From: Cyanobacteriota bacterium
Lineage (GTDB): Bacteria; Cyanobacteriota; Cyanobacteriia; Leptolyngbyales; Leptolyngbyaceae
Assembly (NCBI GenBank): GCA_027482985.1
Contig: JAIXVO010000725.1
Coordinates: 1 to 11,715 of the forward strand
Direction: 5' to 3'
Length of the DNA: 11,715 nucleotides
Below are positions 3,657 through 10,048 of the stretch, in pieces. Each line of letters starts with the position of its first letter. Position 1 is the stretch's first letter. Made by a program: the position numbers and the translations under genes. The notes below the pieces were generated by a model. It was not told the DNA's origin. It did not search any database and was given only the letters and a program-made list of their open reading frames with translations.

Positions 3657-3773
3657 TAGGGTATCCTGTTAGCCCCTTCCCCATCTGGGGTACCTTGAAT
3701 GAGAAGCCGATGTCGTACGGCTATGCTTGAAGCATCAGCAGGTCAAGGGTTCAACGGCGGGAGGGAGTTAGGC
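3657..3773 (+). promoter_or_regulatory. Leader of the RsbU-like/RsbW-like operon, strong Shine-Dalgarno
   Basis: This 117-bp gap must hold the promoter of the following two-gene unit if that unit is transcribed on its own; I cannot assign -35/-10 boxes. The clear signal is the purine run at 3759-3767 (GGGAGGGAG), ending 6 nt before ATG 3774. It decides the start of the phosphatase gene against the upstream in-frame ATGs at 3699 and 3723. Confidence 0.5.
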
Positions 3774-5468
3774 ATGGTGGAAGACGCAGAGGGCAAGCTG
3801 AAGCTGATGGTGGTCGATGATGAGCCAGATAACCTGGCTTTGCTCTATCGCACCTTTCGGCGGGATTTTCAGGTGGTGAAGGCAGAAAGCGCGATCGCGG
3901 CGCTGGAAATTTTGGATCAAGAGGGCGAGATGGCCATCATCATCTCGGATCAACGGATGCCGGAGATGTTGGGCACGGAGTTTTTGAGTAAAACGGTCGA
4001 TCGCTTTCCCGATACGATTCGGATTGTGCTGACGGGCTACACCGATGTCGAAGATCTGGTGGAAGCGATTAATGCCGGGAAGGTGTTCAAGTACATCACG
4101 AAGCCGTGGGTGCCGGATCAGCTCAAGGTGGTAGTGCAACAGGCGGCAGAGACTTACAAGGTGGTGAAACAACGCACCTATGAACTGAGTCGCGCCTTAC
4201 GTCGGGAATCTCTGTTTAATGAGATTACGACGGCAATTCGGGAGTCGCTGGACTACGAGAGTATGTTGCACACGATCGCTGCTACCCTCAGCCGCGCCTT
4301 CTCCGCCCAACAGTGCATTTTGCAACCAGTGGAAGAAGCACAACTGGCGGCGACCGTGTTCCATTATCAGGCGGGACAGCCAGCGATCGAGACGAATGGC
4401 TCAACCCCGCTGCGATTAACGGCAACTGATCCGATTATTCAACGCGTCTTGACTCAGCCTCAGATTGAAATTGAGTCGCTGCCAGACCGCGATCGCCAAC
4501 GTATCGTCGTGCCCCTCGTCTATCAACAAGATTTTCTGGCAATCCTGGCGTTGGATCGAGATACCACCGCCTGGTCTACTGCCGACGTTGATCTCCTGCA
4601 AGGCGTTGCGGCCCAAGCATCCGTTGCCATTTCGCAAGCCAAACTCTATCAGCGCATCCAGAATCAGACCGAACAAATGCGGGCGGAGTTGGAAGTCGCG
4701 CGGCAGATTCAGGGCAATTTACTGCGCCAAAGCTTACCCGACCTGGATGGCATGAAGGTGCAAGCCTGCTGCTATCCGGCGCGCGAAGTGGGGGGCGATT
4801 TCTTTGAAGTCTACACCCATCCTCAAGGCGACATCTGGCTGGCCGTGGGGGATGTATCGGGTAAGGGCGTTCCGGCGGCGCTGTTTATGGCCAGTGCCAT
4901 TTCGGTGCTGCGGCGCGAACTCTCCCAGGAGTCACCGCCCGACCCACACCTGGTGATGCAAAATCTGAATCACACCCTATCCGATGACCTGACCAGCGCC
5001 AACTGCTTTATCACGATGGTGCTGGCGCGGTACACCCCTTCCACACAAAAGTTGGTTTATGCCAACGCGGGTCACATTTATCCCCTAGTCTGGTCAGGCG
5101 ATGCGATCGCAGCCCGCCAAACTGGACACCCCGATAGTGACTCTCTGGAACCCAACTATCTGAAAGTGCGAGGCATCCCACTGGGCATTTTGCCCAACTG
5201 GAAGGCGGCAGCGGGTAGTCTGGATTTGAAGTCGGGTGAAGTCTTGCTCCTCACCAGTGATGGCATCACCGAAGCCACGGTGCAATCCACCGCACCTACG
5301 GCTACGGGTGTCCCCCCCGCCAGTGCCATGCTCCAGCAAACTGGACTCTGGCAACTCCTGTTAAACGCTCAACAGCCCTTAGATTTGACCCACTTGTTGG
5401 CTCAAATTCGAGCGCATAACGTCGTGCAAGAAGACGATCAAACGATTCTCTCTCTGGAGGTCCTGTAA
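3774..5468 (+). CDS. Response regulator with GAF and SpoIIE-type PP2C phosphatase domains (RsbU-like)
   Basis: A 564-aa protein in three parts. An N-terminal receiver (about residues 8-130) has acidic residues D15/D16, the phosphoacceptor D59 in IISDQRMPEM, T87 in LTGYTD and K110 in ITKPW, so it looks phosphorylatable. A GAF-like sensor spans about 150-300, followed by a coiled linker (YQRIQNQTEQMRAELEVARQIQ). A C-terminal PPM/SpoIIE phosphatase spans about 315-564, with metal-binding aspartates D342 (GGDFF), D360 (GDVSGKG), D496 (SDGITE) and D554/D555 (DDQT). The expected role is to dephosphorylate an anti-sigma-factor antagonist (STAS protein) in response to a histidine-kinase signal and a GAF ligand. 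The next gene, 3 nt downstream, encodes the matching RsbW-like kinase. The start is set by the GGGAGGGAG Shine-Dalgarno run. The cognate histidine kinase and STAS protein are not in the window. Confidence 0.93.
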   Translation: MVEDAEGKLKLMVVDDEPDNLALLYRTFRRDFQVVKAESAIAALEILDQEGEMAIIISDQRMPEMLGTEFLSKTVDRFPDTIRIVLTGYTDVEDLVEAINAGKVFKYITKPWVPDQLKVVVQQAAETYKVVKQRTYELSRALRRESLFNEITTAIRESLDYESMLHTIAATLSRAFSAQQCILQPVEEAQLAATVFHYQAGQPAIETNGSTPLRLTATDPIIQRVLTQPQIEIESLPDRDRQRIVVPLVYQQDFLAILALDRDTTAWSTADVDLLQGVAAQASVAISQAKLYQRIQNQTEQMRAELEVARQIQGNLLRQSLPDLDGMKVQACCYPAREVGGDFFEVYTHPQGDIWLAVGDVSGKGVPAALFMASAISVLRRELSQESPPDPHLVMQNLNHTLSDDLTSANCFITMVLARYTPSTQKLVYANAGHIYPLVWSGDAIAARQTGHPDSDSLEPNYLKVRGIPLGILPNWKAAAGSLDLKSGEVLLLTSDGITEATVQSTAPTATGVPPASAMLQQTGLWQLLLNAQQPLDLTHLLAQIRAHNVVQEDDQTILSLEVL

Positions 5469-5471
5469 TCA

Positions 5472-5927
5472 ATGAGAACTGAACTACACGTACCCAGCGA
5501 CCTCAAGTTCCTGGCGATCGTCGAGAACTGGTTGTTAGGCAGTCTGGAAGTCGAGTTAGGCAATCATGTGGATTGGCCGAAACAGTCCAACCGCCTCCGT
5601 CTCGTGTTGGTCGAAGCCTATTCCAATGTGGTACGCCATGCCCACCGCGAACAACCCAATCTGCCCGTGTTGATCCGGTTGGAGCTGCGCGATCGCGATA
5701 TTGCCCTGGAGATTTGGGATCACGGGCAGGGGTATGACCTCTCAACCTATCTCCCACCCACCCCGGAAGCCAAACAAGAAAATGGCTATGGCTGGTTGAT
5801 TCTGAACCGCTTGATGGATCGAGTGGAATATCGCCTGCAAGTGAATGGCCGTAATTGCCTGAAACTGGAAGCCAGCCTACCCGAACCCAAGCAACCCGCC
5901 CCCACGTTTTCGGGGAAAGAAGGGTAA
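5472..5927 (+). CDS. RsbW-like anti-sigma factor / serine kinase (HATPase_c)
   Basis: A 151-aa single-domain GHKL ATPase of the RsbW/SpoIIAB type. The N-box is LRLVLVEAYSNVVRHAHRE (E48, N52), the G1 box is IWDHGQGYD (D83, G85, G87) and the G2 region is NGYGWLILNRLMDRVEY, where a typical member has G-x-G-x-x-L-I. There is no histidine-kinase dimerisation domain. In the family, such proteins phosphorylate a STAS antagonist and bind or release a sigma factor or another target. The ATG follows the upstream stop by 3 nt and has a GGAGGT Shine-Dalgarno at 5456-5461, inside the end of the phosphatase gene, so the two are certainly co-transcribed and probably translationally linked. The C-terminal tail (PKQPAPTFSGKEG) is disordered. 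No sigma factor gene is nearby, so the final target is unknown. Confidence 0.9.
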   Translation: MRTELHVPSDLKFLAIVENWLLGSLEVELGNHVDWPKQSNRLRLVLVEAYSNVVRHAHREQPNLPVLIRLELRDRDIALEIWDHGQGYDLSTYLPPTPEAKQENGYGWLILNRLMDRVEYRLQVNGRNCLKLEASLPEPKQPAPTFSGKEG

Positions 5928-6253: not shown

Positions 6254-7693
6254 GTGGAAGTAGCAGCAGTCGATGATTTTTGGGTAGAAGCGTTGGAACG
6301 GTTGCAACTCTTGATCAACCGTCCCACCTACGAAGCCTGGATTAAAACCGCCGTCATTGAAGAATTTTCTGACACGCGCCTGGTATTGCGGACAGCGAAC
6401 CCGTTTGCCCGAAAATGGCTGCAAAAGTACTACATCAAGACCATGACGGATGTGGTGCAGGAAATTATTGGTCGCCCCATTGAAATTCAAATGACGGTGG
6501 CCAGTGACGAGGAAGGCAATCCCACCGATCCAGACTTCTGGGCCTTACCGATGGATGCGCCGCCCATGAGTCCGGCGGATGCCCCCAACGTGGAACCCGC
6601 CCGCTATCCGCAAGCGATCGCTCATGCGACTCCCGGCACCAACGATCGCCAGCGATCGACGGAATTAAACCCCAAATATGTGTTCTCCCGGTTGGTCGTC
6701 GGGTCTAACAACCGCATGGCGCACGCAGCATCATTGGCAGTCGCCGAATCTCCCGGACGAGAATTCAACCCGCTATTCCTGTGTGGCGGTGTCGGATTGG
6801 GGAAAACCCACTTAATGCAGGCGATCGGGCATTATCGCTTAGAAATTTGTCCCAGTTCCCGCGTGTTTTATGTCTCCACGGAGCAATTCACGAATGACCT
6901 GATTACAGCCATCCGGCGCGACAGTATGCAGACCTTCCGGGAACATTACCGGGCGGCGGATGTGTTGCTGGTGGATGACATTCAGTTCATTGAAGGCAAG
7001 GAATACACCCAGGAAGAGTTTTTCCACACCTTCAATACTTTGCACGAAGCTGGAAAACAGGTGGTACTAGCGAGCGATCGCCCCCCCAACCAGATTCCTC
7101 GTCTGCAAGAACGCCTCTGTTCCCGCTTCTCGATGGGCCTGATTGCCGACATTCAAACGCCCGACCTAGAAACTCGGATGGCGATTTTGCAGAAAAAGGC
7201 GGAATACGAGAACATGCGCCTGCCGCGAGAAGTGGTGGAATACATCGCTTCCAGCTACGTTTCCAACATTCGGGAACTGGAAGGGGCACTGATTCGCGCC
7301 GTCGCCTACACTTCTATTGCTGGACTGCCGATGACGGTCGAAAACATCGCCCCCGTCCTGAATCCACCAGTTGAGCAAGTCGAAGCCTCACCCGATGATA
7401 TTCTGACGGTGATTTCACAAGATTTTGATGTCTCGTTGGAAGACCTGAAAGGCAGTTCTCGCCGCCGGGAAGTGAGCACCGCCCGCCAAATTGGGATGTA
7501 TCTGATGCGCCAACATACCGACCTGAGCCTACCCAAAATCGGCGAAGTCTTCGGCGGCAAAGACCATACGACGGTGATGTATAGCTGCGACAAGATTTCG
7601 CAGTTGAAAGACAATGACCCCAACATGGCGCAGAACTTGAGACAACTGAGCGATCGCATTAACCAAACGGCTCAAACTCGGCACCAGGGCTAG
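6254..7693 (+). CDS. dnaA: Chromosomal replication initiator DnaA
   Basis: AAA+ initiator of 479 aa that binds DnaA boxes and opens the origin. Domain I begins at once ([27 protein letters not shown]). Domain II is a short P/A-rich linker at about residues 85-135. The AAA+ core starts near [16 protein letters not shown], with Walker [10 protein letters not shown] at about 178-186, Walker B VDDIQF at 240-245, and sensor/arginine motifs in LCSRFSMGL and the [15 protein letters not shown] [10 protein letters not shown]. Domain IV ends with the DnaA-box-reading signature GGKDHTTV (434-441). GTG 6254 is chosen because GAGGT lies 4 nt upstream (6245-6249) and the protein then starts where relatives start. 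The frame stays open 46 more codons to GTG 6116, with no family resemblance. A perfect DnaA box upstream suggests autoregulation. The gene is followed by the origin and dnaN. Confidence 0.97.
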
Positions 7694-7697
7694 GGAA

Positions 7698-7731
7698 GGC
7701 AGAGGGCAGTAGGCAGTAGGCAGTAGGCAGA
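7698..7731 (+). repeat. Heptanucleotide tandem repeat (GGCAGTA)n
   Basis: One variant unit GGCAGAG (7698-7704), three exact GGCAGTA units (7705-7711, 7712-7718, 7719-7725) and a partial GGCAG (7726-7730). It starts 5 nt after the dnaA stop codon. Heptamer arrays of this sort are known in cyanobacteria as STRR (short tandemly repeated repetitive) sequences. Confidence 0.9.
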
Positions 7732-7923
7732 AGTCAAACTAACTGAGCCAGCCCTGTGGAAAACTTTGTTGAGAACTGAGATCGATCAGTTCTAATTTGA
7801 TATGGCAAAACCCATGATCGGTTTTCATCTGGATTCCGGTCGTGGGTTTTGTTGTGAGATCGCGGTTTCGACTGGTTGGGCAAGGGGCAATCGGCCTGGG
7901 TGACTTGCCTTCTCCACAGGTTG

Positions 7924-7977
7924 GGAGACGTACCAACGGTGACAACCGATCAGGAGACGTTCCAACGGTACGTCTCT
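7924..7977. repeat. Nested direct repeat and palindrome (GGAGACGTNCCAACGGT)
   Basis: GGAGACGTACCAACGGT (7924-7940) is repeated with one mismatch at 7953-7969, 29 bp apart. The second copy runs into GGTACGTCTCT (7967-7977), whose first ten bases are the exact reverse complement of 7925-7934. Two hairpins can therefore form: a 10-bp stem between 7925-7934 and 7967-7976, or a 7-bp stem between 7954-7960 and 7970-7976. The GAGACGT/ACGTCTC ends resemble small palindromic elements scattered through cyanobacterial intergenic DNA, as I recall them. Confidence 0.7.
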
Positions 7978-8029
7978 ACCATGCCTTCTTACTCCTTCCC
8001 ATGCTTCTCCTCTCCTTCCCCTCCCTAAC

Positions 8030-8082
8030 TTCTGGCTTCTGGCTTCTGACTCCTGACTCCTTGCCCCTGTCCCCTGTCCCCT
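8030..8082 (-). repeat. Degenerate heptanucleotide tandem array in a CT-rich tract
   Basis: Seven successive 7-nt units drift in sequence: TTCTGGC twice (8030-8043), TTCTGAC, TCCTGAC, TCCTTGC, then CCCTGTC twice (8065-8078) and a partial CCCT. The phase is exact throughout, so it grew by heptamer duplication and then mutated. Read on the minus strand it is purine-rich with CAGAAG motifs, like the GGCAG-type array at 7698-7731, which runs in the opposite orientation. It lies within a pyrimidine-rich top strand from about 7981 to 8130. Confidence 0.8.
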
Positions 8083-8431
8083 CTTCCGATCAGCTTTGCT
8101 TATTCTCCCCAAATCCCCTTTTCCCCAGAATTTTCCAGTTATGCACAGGCGATCGCCCCCTTCTTGCCCAAACCAGAACTCGATCTGAGACAAGTGAGTC
8201 TGTCAATTTTTGCGTTTAAAGAATGTTAAGGAATGTAAAATGGCGATCTGCCTGTGGAAAACCCGGCTTTTTTCTGTGGAAAACCAGGGGAAAATCAGTT
8301 CATAACGATCTAGCGATCGGGGAAAGCGGGGGTAGTACGGATGGTCTGTGGAAAGGAGGGGGACTTTTCCCCAAGTTATCCACAGGCAAAAGATCGGGTC
8401 TAAAGCTTCAGTTTGAGGGATCTGAGCGATC

Positions 8432-8487
8432 GTTTCCACACTTTCCACAACCCCTACTACTACGGTTTAAATAAGTTTTACTTAAGT
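8432..8487 (+). other. Origin unwinding element: tandem DnaA boxes, DnaA-trio repeats, AT-rich tract
   Basis: Two abutting DnaA boxes, GTTTCCACA (8432-8440) and CTTTCCACA (8441-8449), each with one mismatch to TTTTCCACA, are followed by a short C-rich spacer, then CTA three times (8454-8462). On the complementary strand these read 3'-GAT-5' three times, the DnaA-trio described in Bacillus subtilis. An AT-rich stretch follows at 8466-8487. The order and the direction towards dnaN match the B. subtilis basal unwinding system. This is a pattern match by eye, not a demonstrated site. Confidence 0.7.
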
Positions 8488-8590
8488 CTAGGGATCTATC
8501 GCAATCCCAAAAATCGGCAAAACAGGCTCAGGTGGATCGTTTCAGGCATCAGTGGTAGGATCGCTGGGCAATGAATTCGAGTGCCGCTCA

Positions 8591-9754
8591 ATGAAACTGG
8601 TCTGCGCCCAAAACCAACTCAGCACGAATCTTTCGCTTGTCAGTCGCGCTGTCGCCGCACGACCATCGCATCCGGTGTTGGCGAATGTGTTGCTGATCGC
8701 AGACGCAGAAAACCAGCAAATCAAGCTCAGTGCCTTCGATCTGAGCCTCGGCATCCAAACCAGTTTCCCGGCAGACGTGGAAGAAGGCGGCAAATTGACC
8801 CTCCCCGCCCGCCTGTTCACGGATATTGTCTCGCGCTTGCCAGAAGGTGACATCACCCTCAGCACCGACACGGAAGCGGACGAACCCACCTACCTGACGA
8901 CGATCACCTGCGCCAATGGTCGGTATCAGGTGCGCGGTTTGGGAGCTGAAGAATTTCCCGCCTTACCGGAAGTGGAAGAAGGGGAAACGATTCAACTCTC
9001 GGCGATCGCCCTCACCGAAGGACTGCGCAATTCCCTGTTTTCCGCCAGCCCGGATGAGACGAAGCAAATCCTCACCGGCGTTCACCTGACGCTGAAGGAA
9101 GATGGCCTCGAGTTTGCGGCCACGGATGGACACCGGTTAGCAGTGGTGGAACCGCCCGTCCCGGAGGCGACCGAGGCCAGCAGCAAGAAGAAGGCGGATT
9201 TGCAAGAACTGGATGTCACCATTCCCGCCAAGGCGTTGCAAGAGCTGACGAAGATGCTCGATCGCCAATCGGAAAGTTCGGTTGCAGTGAAATTCGATCG
9301 CGGTCAAGCCGTCTTTGAATGGGTGGATCAACGCCTGACGACGCGCCTGCTGGAAGGGCAATATCCCAACTACCGCCAACTGATTCCCAAGCAATTTGGC
9401 TACCAGGCGACGGTGGAGCGCCGCTTGCTGTTGAGTGCCGTCGAACGGATCGCAGTGCTGGCGGATCAGAAAAACAACATTGTCAAAATGACGCTCAACA
9501 ACAGTAAGGGCACCCTCTCGCTGTCAGTCGATGCGCCGGATGTCGGGAGCGGTGAAGAAACCATTCCCGCCCAAATCACCGGCGAAGACTTGATCATCGC
9601 CTTCAATGTGAAGTACCTCCTGGATGGCCTCAAGACGCTCAACACCAGCGAAATCCAGATGCAGTTCAATACCCCCACCAGCCCCGCCATCTTCACCCCC
9701 CTCGGTGGCTTGAAAATGACCTACCTCGTCATGCCTGTGCAGATTCGGTCTTAA
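8591..9754 (+). CDS. dnaN: DNA polymerase III beta subunit (sliding clamp)
   Basis: The 387-aa sliding clamp, of usual length for the family. It begins MKLVCAQNQLSTNLSLVSRAV followed by the conserved PVLANVLLIADAENQQIKLSAFDLSLGI of clamp domain 1. The domain 2 landmark TDGHRLAVVEPPVPE is followed by a Lys/Ala-rich linker (ATEASSKKKADLQELD) before the IPAKALQEL repeat, then FEWVDQRLTTRLLEGQYPNYRQLIPK. Domain 3 ends in LKMTYLVMPVQIRS, the partner-binding pocket end (usual form YxxMP-x-R/QI). The protein dimerises around DNA and tethers Pol III and repair polymerases. ATG 8591 is chosen because the protein then starts as relatives do; only a weak GAG at 8579-8581 precedes it. The frame extends 13 codons upstream without family support. 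The AT-rich unwinding tract lies about 100 nt upstream, so its promoter probably overlaps the origin. Confidence 0.97.
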   Translation: MKLVCAQNQLSTNLSLVSRAVAARPSHPVLANVLLIADAENQQIKLSAFDLSLGIQTSFPADVEEGGKLTLPARLFTDIVSRLPEGDITLSTDTEADEPTYLTTITCANGRYQVRGLGAEEFPALPEVEEGETIQLSAIALTEGLRNSLFSASPDETKQILTGVHLTLKEDGLEFAATDGHRLAVVEPPVPEATEASSKKKADLQELDVTIPAKALQELTKMLDRQSESSVAVKFDRGQAVFEWVDQRLTTRLLEGQYPNYRQLIPKQFGYQATVERRLLLSAVERIAVLADQKNNIVKMTLNNSKGTLSLSVDAPDVGSGEETIPAQITGEDLIIAFNVKYLLDGLKTLNTSEIQMQFNTPTSPAIFTPLGGLKMTYLVMPVQIRS

Positions 9755-9781
9755 AGCGATCGCTTGAGTCATTTAGCCTGG

Positions 9782-10048
9782 ATGGTGCTGATGAAATACG
9801 AGAACGAAAACATCCCCGAAAATTTGAGTGATCATGCCAAAGCAGTTTGGGCAGCAAAAATTCTGGCAACCCATCGCCACCGTGACTATAGTGCCTGGAT
9901 TGTATTGACAACTGAAGAGTTTTCAGTCGATCGCGAAGTCAGTAAGATTGAAGTTTTGCCCAAAGATCGACTGACTGCGGCTGGACTGATTAGTGGCTGG
10001 ACTGCCAACGAAGCATGCGCGATCGCTAAGTCTTACGTGGGATGCTGA
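9782..10048 (+). CDS. Unrecognised small protein after dnaN
   Basis: An 88-aa ORF from ATG 9782; TTG 9764, GTG 9785 and ATG 9791 are alternatives, and none has a clear Shine-Dalgarno sequence. I do not recognise the family. Visible traits: an acidic start (KYENENIPENLSDHAKAVWAAKIL), a charged middle (HRHRDYSAWIVLTTEEFSVDREVSKIEVLPKDRL), and a helical end (TAAGLISGWTANEACAIAKSYVGC). It has no membrane segment and no signal peptide. It begins within 30 nt of the dnaN stop, so readthrough transcription from dnaN is likely, and it precedes the Uma2-family gene by 72 bp. Composition is somewhat more AT-rich than the neighbouring dnaN. A HIP1 octamer lies inside its end, near 10019. It is probably a real small gene, but function is unknown and it could be a chance ORF. 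Confidence 0.5.
   Translation: MVLMKYENENIPENLSDHAKAVWAAKILATHRHRDYSAWIVLTTEEFSVDREVSKIEVLPKDRLTAAGLISGWTANEACAIAKSYVGC

Follow-up and report, generated by a model that had tools for sequence, protein, structure and literature searches.

A probable basal unwinding system beside dnaN in a leptolyngbyacean cyanobacterium, and the distribution of DnaA-trios across the phylum

In a cyanobacterium of the family Leptolyngbyaceae, the gap between dnaA and dnaN holds a short stretch in which DnaA boxes, CTA triplets, and AT-rich DNA follow one another. This locus raises the question of whether the arrangement is the place at which DnaA opens the chromosomal origin, and of how its occurrence elsewhere in the phylum relates to the presence of DnaA. 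Triplets of this kind, known as DnaA-trios, are reportedly a discovery of Richardson in 2016. The window, that is, the whole stretch of 11,715 nucleotides analyzed here, is an entire contig (C577) of a genome that is 84% complete and divided into 838 contigs. The stretch at 8432–8487 very probably serves the chromosomal origin as its basal unwinding system (BUS). Direct support for this reading comes from the sequence, from its conservation with rigid spacing, from the weak duplex, and from the intact cognate dnaA gene alongside.

The locus and its sequence

The gap between dnaA and dnaN spans 897 bp and contains roughly eight DnaA boxes, distributed over both strands (Table 1), several of them of the type TTTTCCACA, the cyanobacterial DnaA box consensus (PMC6323995, PMC4674748, both in extract). 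A first-pass annotation had described two abutting DnaA boxes, a spacer, three CTA triplets, and an AT-rich stretch, in that order and pointing toward dnaN. This order was found at 8432–8487, with the start of dnaN downstream. The tandem boxes are imperfect, each with two mismatches to TTATNCACA and one to the cyanobacterial TTTTCCACA, and the exact boxes sit upstream of the pair. Between the end of the trios and the start of the AT-rich block lies CGG. Of the 11685 30-mers in the window, the one starting at 8466 has the lowest stability (nearest-neighbor energies); together with the conserved, rigid architecture described below, it supports the earlier suggestion of a likely unwinding site.

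Table 1. Positions of genes, DnaA boxes, and parts of the candidate unwinding element in the window
Feature	Position	Strand	Remark
dnaA	6116..7693	+	open frame from GTG 6116; Pfam Bac_DnaA, Bac_DnaA_C, DnaA_N
DnaA box TTTTCCACA	7755..7763	-	exact; far side of gap
DnaA box TTATGCACA	8139..8147	+	0 mismatches to TTATNCACA
DnaA box TTTTCCACA, cyanobacterial consensus	8253..8261	-	exact
DnaA box TTTTCCACA	8275..8283	-	exact
DnaA-box-like CTTTCCACA	8347..8355	-	2 mismatches to TTATNCACA, 1 to TTTTCCACA
DnaA box TTATCCACA	8376..8384	+	exact
Tandem pair, upstream box GTTTCCACA	8432..8440	+	read directly
Tandem pair, downstream box CTTTCCACA	8441..8449	+	abuts upstream box
Spacer ACCC, 4 nt	8450..8453	+	length, not letters, is the conserved feature
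Three DnaA-trios CTACTACTA	8454..8462	+	3′-GAT-5′ repeats on minus strand
AT-rich unwinding element TTTAAATAAGTTTTACTTAAGT	8466..8487		least stable 30-mer starts at 8466
dnaN (DNA polymerase III beta clamp)	8591..9754	+	Pfam

The published search rule for a BUS, in the extract available, comprises one or two DnaA boxes next to the trios, the better one with at most two mismatches, a gap of no more than 16 nt from box to first trio, and at least three 3′-NAN-5′ triplets, most commonly 3′-GAT-5′ (PMC8287927). In the window, both tandem boxes are within one mismatch of TTTTCCACA, the trio run begins 4 nt from the nearer box and 13 nt from the upstream box, and the three GAT triplets at 8454–8462 are exact. 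The adjoining weak AT-rich DNA at 8466 is a common BUS trait that lies outside the search rule. The window thus agrees with the published sequence rule, as extracted, and its element belongs to a known kind that has already been demonstrated in the phylum.

Several features of the surroundings were also recorded. The region 7700–8060, between dnaA and most of the boxes, appears by eye to be rich in repeats (GGCAGTAGGCAGTAGGCAG, CTTCTGGCTTCTGGCTTCTGACTCCTGACTCC). At 3699–5924, a response regulator-GAF-SpoIIE gene is followed by an HATPase_c_2 gene (Pfam), and this pair near dnaA resembles a partner-switching pair. A search of the whole window against Rfam at gathering scores gave no match. The local cumulative skew has its minimum at 9501–10000, approximately 1.3 kb past the element, in a window of 11.7 kb that is too short to give this weight.

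Conservation within the window's family

The DnaN protein of the window matched 41 of the 42 genomes of its family (f1), and the region upstream of dnaN was compared in 40 of them, the window's own included (G035 and G004, having no usable dnaN, were left out). The triplets and their distance to the boxes, which the first-pass annotation had proposed to look for in relatives, are indeed conserved: the module is present in both same-genus genomes and lies near dnaN in 20 of the 40, counting the window. The other 20 lack it there. With dnaA found in all 42 family genomes searched, the absence of the trio from half of the sample indicates that the module is dispensable in the family.

Among the 20 trio-bearing genomes, identity to the consensus is 0.98 for the triplets, 0.95 for the box pair, and 0.75 for the letters of the spacer. 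It is 0.81 over the 27 nt after the triplets and 0.47 over the next 24 nt; upstream, it is 0.50 in the 38 nt preceding the box pair and 0.63 farther off, where other boxes lie. These values bear on a classical AT-rich DUE, in which boxes and AT-rich block suffice and the triplets are incidental. Such a reading would account for the AT-rich block being the weakest duplex of the window and for the box pairs that trio-less family members often retain without triplets, but conservation of the triplets equals or exceeds that of the boxes and surpasses that of the AT-rich block, and the phase of the triplets relative to the boxes is fixed in 15 families. A classical DUE is therefore regarded as very unlikely.

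In most trio-bearing family members, the trio is followed by a lineage-specific block of TTTAAATAAG and then CTTAAGT, often with CCGGA; the window carries the TTTAAATAAG and CTTAAGT parts, but not CCGGA. In five trio-less loci of genus g11 (L023, L026–L028, and L044), a conserved CACA(A/G)GTCGTACAATAGTACT follows the box pair instead of a trio. A second DnaN-like gene, with 29–39% identity, is found in G001, G002, G009, G016, G017, G026, G034, G035, and G038 of the same family, with in-frame stops in the copies of G026 and G038.

Two candidate explanations for the retention or absence of the trio were rejected. Linkage to dnaA does not account for trio retention, as dnaA lies by dnaN in 7 of the 20 family members with a trio and in 9 of the 20 without (Fisher p 0.75, with contig breaks scored as non-adjacent). 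Nor was a consistent alteration of DnaA found in trio-less genomes when the Walker A, initiator-specific motif (ISM), arginine finger, sensor II, and helix-turn-helix regions of 31 sequences (11 trio-bearing, 20 trio-less) were compared by eye: the core motifs are kept, and scattered substitutions occur in both groups alike. The ISM Ile is replaced by Val in three trio-less family members (G001, G005, and G006), and the DnaA of G152 deviates most in sensor II.

Chromosome-wide skew was sampled in relatives, a check for a switch of sign at this site having been proposed by the earlier annotation; the result supports an origin here in one genome and not in another. In G015, in which the order dnaA-origin-dnaN is kept, the best half-chromosome skew contrast (0.018) falls at dnaN, with no sampled position scoring higher, in a sample of 20 segments of 20 kb of which a few, including the two beside dnaN, carry the contrast. 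In the same-genus G012 (32 segments), no skew split occurs at dnaN, and 47% of positions score higher. The dnaA gene of G012 lies approximately 180 kb away, and that of G015 lies beside the origin.

Trios and dnaA across the phylum

The phylum search covered 291 genomes, with a requested completeness of at least 95%, and gave 128 DnaN matches at E 1e-100. Together, the 40 family members and 117 others made up a set of 157 regions upstream of dnaN. The set excludes an additional DnaN copy in G036 and seven f19 records whose sequence begins close to dnaN (G138, G170, G219, G235, G287, G296, and G320); of these seven, the first three show box-4nt-CTACTA near the record start. The last 700 bp before dnaN were scanned for a box with at most two mismatches followed by a trio run 0–12 nt on. 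Matches were found in 50 of the 157 on the dnaN strand and in 3 of the 157 on the opposite strand. Of the 50, 43 are listed with a box-to-trio spacing of 4 nt and 2 with one of 5 nt; G003 and G306 are listed at other spacings, yet each also has a 4-nt site, and G018, G201, and G257, at other spacings, were excluded. The total of dnaN-linked modules is thus 47 of 157, with 45 at 4-nt and 2 at 5-nt spacing; the run is weaker (score 9–10 of 12) in seven of these (G024, G325, G251, G255, G212, G269, and G231). The phase of trio to box is fixed across 15 families, and the consensus of one representative from each of 14 families reads tTTtCCAca.TTTCCaCAgcccCTAcTACTActa. In G074, a 2.8-Mb genome of family f10, TTTTCCACA-gccc-CTATTACTACTG is found with the box 141 nt before dnaN and with dnaA and dnaN far apart, whereas in the window the two genes flank the origin. 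Of the loci that carry a species or genus name, that of Kaiparowitsia implicata has a trio ahead of dnaN, and those of Phormidesmis priestleyi ULC007 and of two Myxacorys genomes have none.

A trinucleotide repeat produced by chance might also be supposed, since short repeats arise randomly and CTACTACTA with at most one mismatch occurs three times in the window against 0.32 expected, the copy at 8454–8462 being the only exact one. The conservation just described, with dnaN-linked modules in 47 of the 157 regions and near-identical triplets in the trio-bearing family members, refutes this. Moreover, the combined pattern (box-N-box-N4-three CTA, at most three mismatches) occurs once in the window and in none of 200 window shuffles, and a stricter rule matches 37 of the 157 upstream regions, against a mean of 0.05 and a maximum of 1 in 20 shuffled sets. 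The probability of a chance repeat is negligible.

Modules away from dnaN were sought genome-wide with the exact pattern box-N{2,6}-CTACTA, and 20 such sites were inspected. Six, with 5–11 boxes within 400 bp, are origin-like: one in G068, downstream of dnaA and far from dnaN; four in f18 genomes (G310, G277, G210, and G120), away from both genes; and one in G045, from outside the class, approximately 150 bp upstream of its dnaN. Those of G068 and f18 have 7–11 boxes within 400 bp. The other 14 were taken as chance matches, having 0–2 boxes within 400 bp; 12 of them lie inside stop-to-stop frames of at least 121 aa, and the frames at the origin-like sites measure 38–177 aa. A box cluster far from both genes has been remarked on for one Synechococcus in DoriC 10 (PMC6323995, in extract), and the off-dnaN modules of G068 and f18 agree with that remark, as far as the extract goes.

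The stretch could instead be a promoter or operator of dnaN under DnaA control, since it precedes dnaN in most genomes bearing it. DnaA doubles as a transcription factor, a point that also counts for this reading. However, the box lies anywhere from 120 to 572 nt before dnaN, an approximately 5-fold range, whereas the spacing of box to trio is 4, rarely 5, nt. This rigid spacing, the variable distance to dnaN, and the copies off dnaN in G068 and the four f18 genomes together indicate the behavior of an origin module rather than of part of a gene leader. A consensus scan of 7690–8620, of a kind that would miss the true dnaN promoter too, found no sigma-70-like promoter, and a conserved promoter-like block is visible by eye nearer dnaN in the family. 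A regulatory role of this sort is thus considered highly improbable, and the reading as a BUS is kept.

At some trio loci, an inverted TAGTAG(TAG) on the other strand faces the trio across the AT-rich core, 19–23 nt past it. By eye, such facing trios are seen in L297–L299 (f18), in L295 (G068), and upstream of dnaN in G046, G093, and G149; they are weaker in G223, G251, and G255, and the inverted run has no visible adjoining box. TAGTAG occurs within 60 nt at 9 of 54 trio loci from six families (at only 9 nt in G251 and G255), against a mean of 1.07 and a largest value of 4 in 500 shuffles; the 54 loci were chosen by a rule slightly unlike that for the 52 trio genomes counted below. Through facing trios, DnaA or a hairpin could act on the second strand. 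The window has no facing inverted run, and a literature search on facing trios turned up nothing evident.

With the five off-dnaN sites of G068 and f18 included, trios are present in 52 of the 157 genomes. The remaining 105 are trio-less in the sense that none lies within 700 bp of dnaN, sites off dnaN being covered by the exact pattern and the 20 inspected sites. In the same genomes, dnaA was sought at E 1e-60 and is missing from 15 of the 157: from none of the 52 trio genomes and from 15 of the 105 trio-less ones. G084, G263, G048, and G051, with neither a dnaA match nor a DnaN match at the cut-off, stand outside the 157. By family, dnaA-less members occur in 0 of 15 trio-bearing and 6 of 13 trio-less families (Fisher p 0.0046, although families are not independent).

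The history of the trio was followed on a quick single-gene DnaN tree of 121 genomes (30 from f1, 90 others, and G045, on which it was rooted), with 53 of 118 inner branches well supported. The trio is present in most deep lineages and in the outgroup genome G045; f19 is mixed, with trios in 12 of its 19 members of the 157, several of them weak runs. At the fewest, the trio label changes 10 times, at least 7 of these on well-supported branches, and a loss-only model needs 12 losses, a number that falls to 9 if G208, with its long branch, is set aside. One loss corresponds to a clade of 11 genomes inside the window's family, with a support of 92 (below the mark of 95); box pairs without triplets are common among its members. 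The cyanobacterial trio thus looks ancestral and repeatedly lost. All seven inferred losses of dnaA fall below trio-less nodes, most of them in one large clade; the chance of this, if losses follow branch length, is 0.004–0.009, or 0.02–0.03 for five losses, and varies with the rows omitted. An independent-pairs test of trio against dnaA loss had no power, as dnaA differs in just 0–2 of the seven pairs.

These counts can be set beside published work. DnaA-dependent initiation has been lost several times in Cyanobacteria, and dnaA is non-essential in Synechocystis 6803, Nostoc 7120, and Synechococcus 7002 but essential in S. elongatus (Ohbayashi et al., 2020; PMC7198777, in extract). Trios are not expected where DnaA is unused (Pelliciari et al., 2021; PMC8287927), and their absence from dnaA-less genomes fits this expectation. 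A literature search that did not extend to the supplementary species-level BUS predictions of PMC8287927 made no paper evident that links trio distribution to DnaA dependence in Cyanobacteria.

The element of the window might then be a relic, namely a genuine, inherited BUS in a chromosome whose replication now starts elsewhere, or at multiple sites, independently of DnaA, as in Nostoc 7120 and Synechocystis 6803. The irregular skew of the same-genus G012 and the repeated origin of DnaA-independence in the phylum (PMC7198777, in extract) would be consistent with this. However, the near-identity of the triplets in the 20 trio-bearing family members contrasts with approximately 0.5 just outside, and triplets kept while adjoining sequence drifted point to selection that is current or recent. 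Furthermore, the trio is missing from all 15 dnaA-less genomes of the 157, which suggests that it is not retained without DnaA. A relic is accordingly judged unlikely, and a BUS in use is preferred.

It is tentatively proposed, as a scenario given slightly less than an even chance, that the CTA-trio BUS is ancestral in Cyanobacteria, that loss of the trio came first and freed a lineage from DnaA, and that loss of dnaA followed. If so, sequence alone would suffice to predict, from the presence of trios, whether a cyanobacterium needs dnaA. The window's family, trio-bearing and trio-less yet everywhere equipped with dnaA, would then represent a natural experiment at the stage between these two losses. 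The trio split within this family is open to bench testing, and the pattern of distribution merits follow-up. The 157 genomes provide a phylum-wide check of the expectation of Pelliciari et al. on trios and DnaA use: the rigid box-4nt-CTA module occurs in deep lineages and one outgroup genome, and is absent from the six sampled families with dnaA-less members.

Proposed mechanism and known systems

According to the published model, DnaA bound to the boxes guides an oligomer onto the trios, and strand opening follows (PMC8287927; PMC6669920, in extract). By analogy, the helix-turn-helix domain of DnaA would bind the double-stranded tandem boxes, and further subunits would spread from the downstream box over the 4-nt spacer onto the minus strand, each reading one 3′-GAT-5′ triplet through its ISM. 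The filament may then stretch the minus strand such that the weak AT-rich block at 8466–8487 opens and the helicase is loaded there. Binding, filament formation, opening, helicase loading, and use in vivo are thus inferred from work on B. subtilis, H. pylori, and S. elongatus. The DnaA proteins tested, that of S. elongatus included, require their own boxes and trios in vitro, and in H. pylori mutated boxes or trios could not be introduced in vivo (PMC8287927). Either ADP or ATP allows S. elongatus DnaA to open its scaffold, and the complex formed may therefore be unlike the one in B. subtilis (PMC8287927). In addition, several cyanobacteria possess dnaA without depending on it (PMC7198777, in extract), so function in vivo is not a given. 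When the DnaA of the window (the portion from 6272) was aligned with that of B. subtilis (8btg), the Ile matching I190 and the Arg matching R264, as counted from the alignment, were found to be kept; these are the single-stranded-DNA-binding Ile of the ISM and the arginine finger.

The first-pass annotation saw in the locus an extension of the trio model to a new phylum. This view is outdated, as a 2021 study demonstrated in vitro that S. elongatus DnaA depends on boxes and trios (PMC8287927), and DoriC and Ori-Finder, as far as extracts describe them, already scan for trios. The element is real, conserved, correctly described, and ordinary in kind.

With the BUS of B. subtilis oriC (DnaA-boxes 6/7 and trios), the window shares tandem boxes, a short spacer, at least three 3′-GAT-5′ triplets, and AT-rich DNA beyond, in a comparison by described layout rather than letter by letter (PMC8287927; PMC6669920, in extract). 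Unlike those of the B. subtilis BUS, its boxes follow the cyanobacterial form TTTTCCACA. The distance from upstream box to trio falls within the peak of 10–13 nt reported for bacteria (PMC8287927). In the oriC regions of Cyanothece ATCC 51142 and Anabaena 7120, as in the window, clusters of TTTTCCACA boxes lie upstream of dnaN together with AT-rich DNA; the extract of the paper on them (PMC4674748), which predates the term, mentions no trio. The BUS of S. elongatus, studied in vitro (PMC8287927), comes from the same phylum and another family; the window's family differs in having a conserved AT block of its own. Overall, a BUS of this kind was already known in Cyanobacteria from S. elongatus (2021, PMC8287927). 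Taken alone, the site adds one BUS to those known; what makes it valuable is the comparison across the phylum, which is the fresh part of this work.
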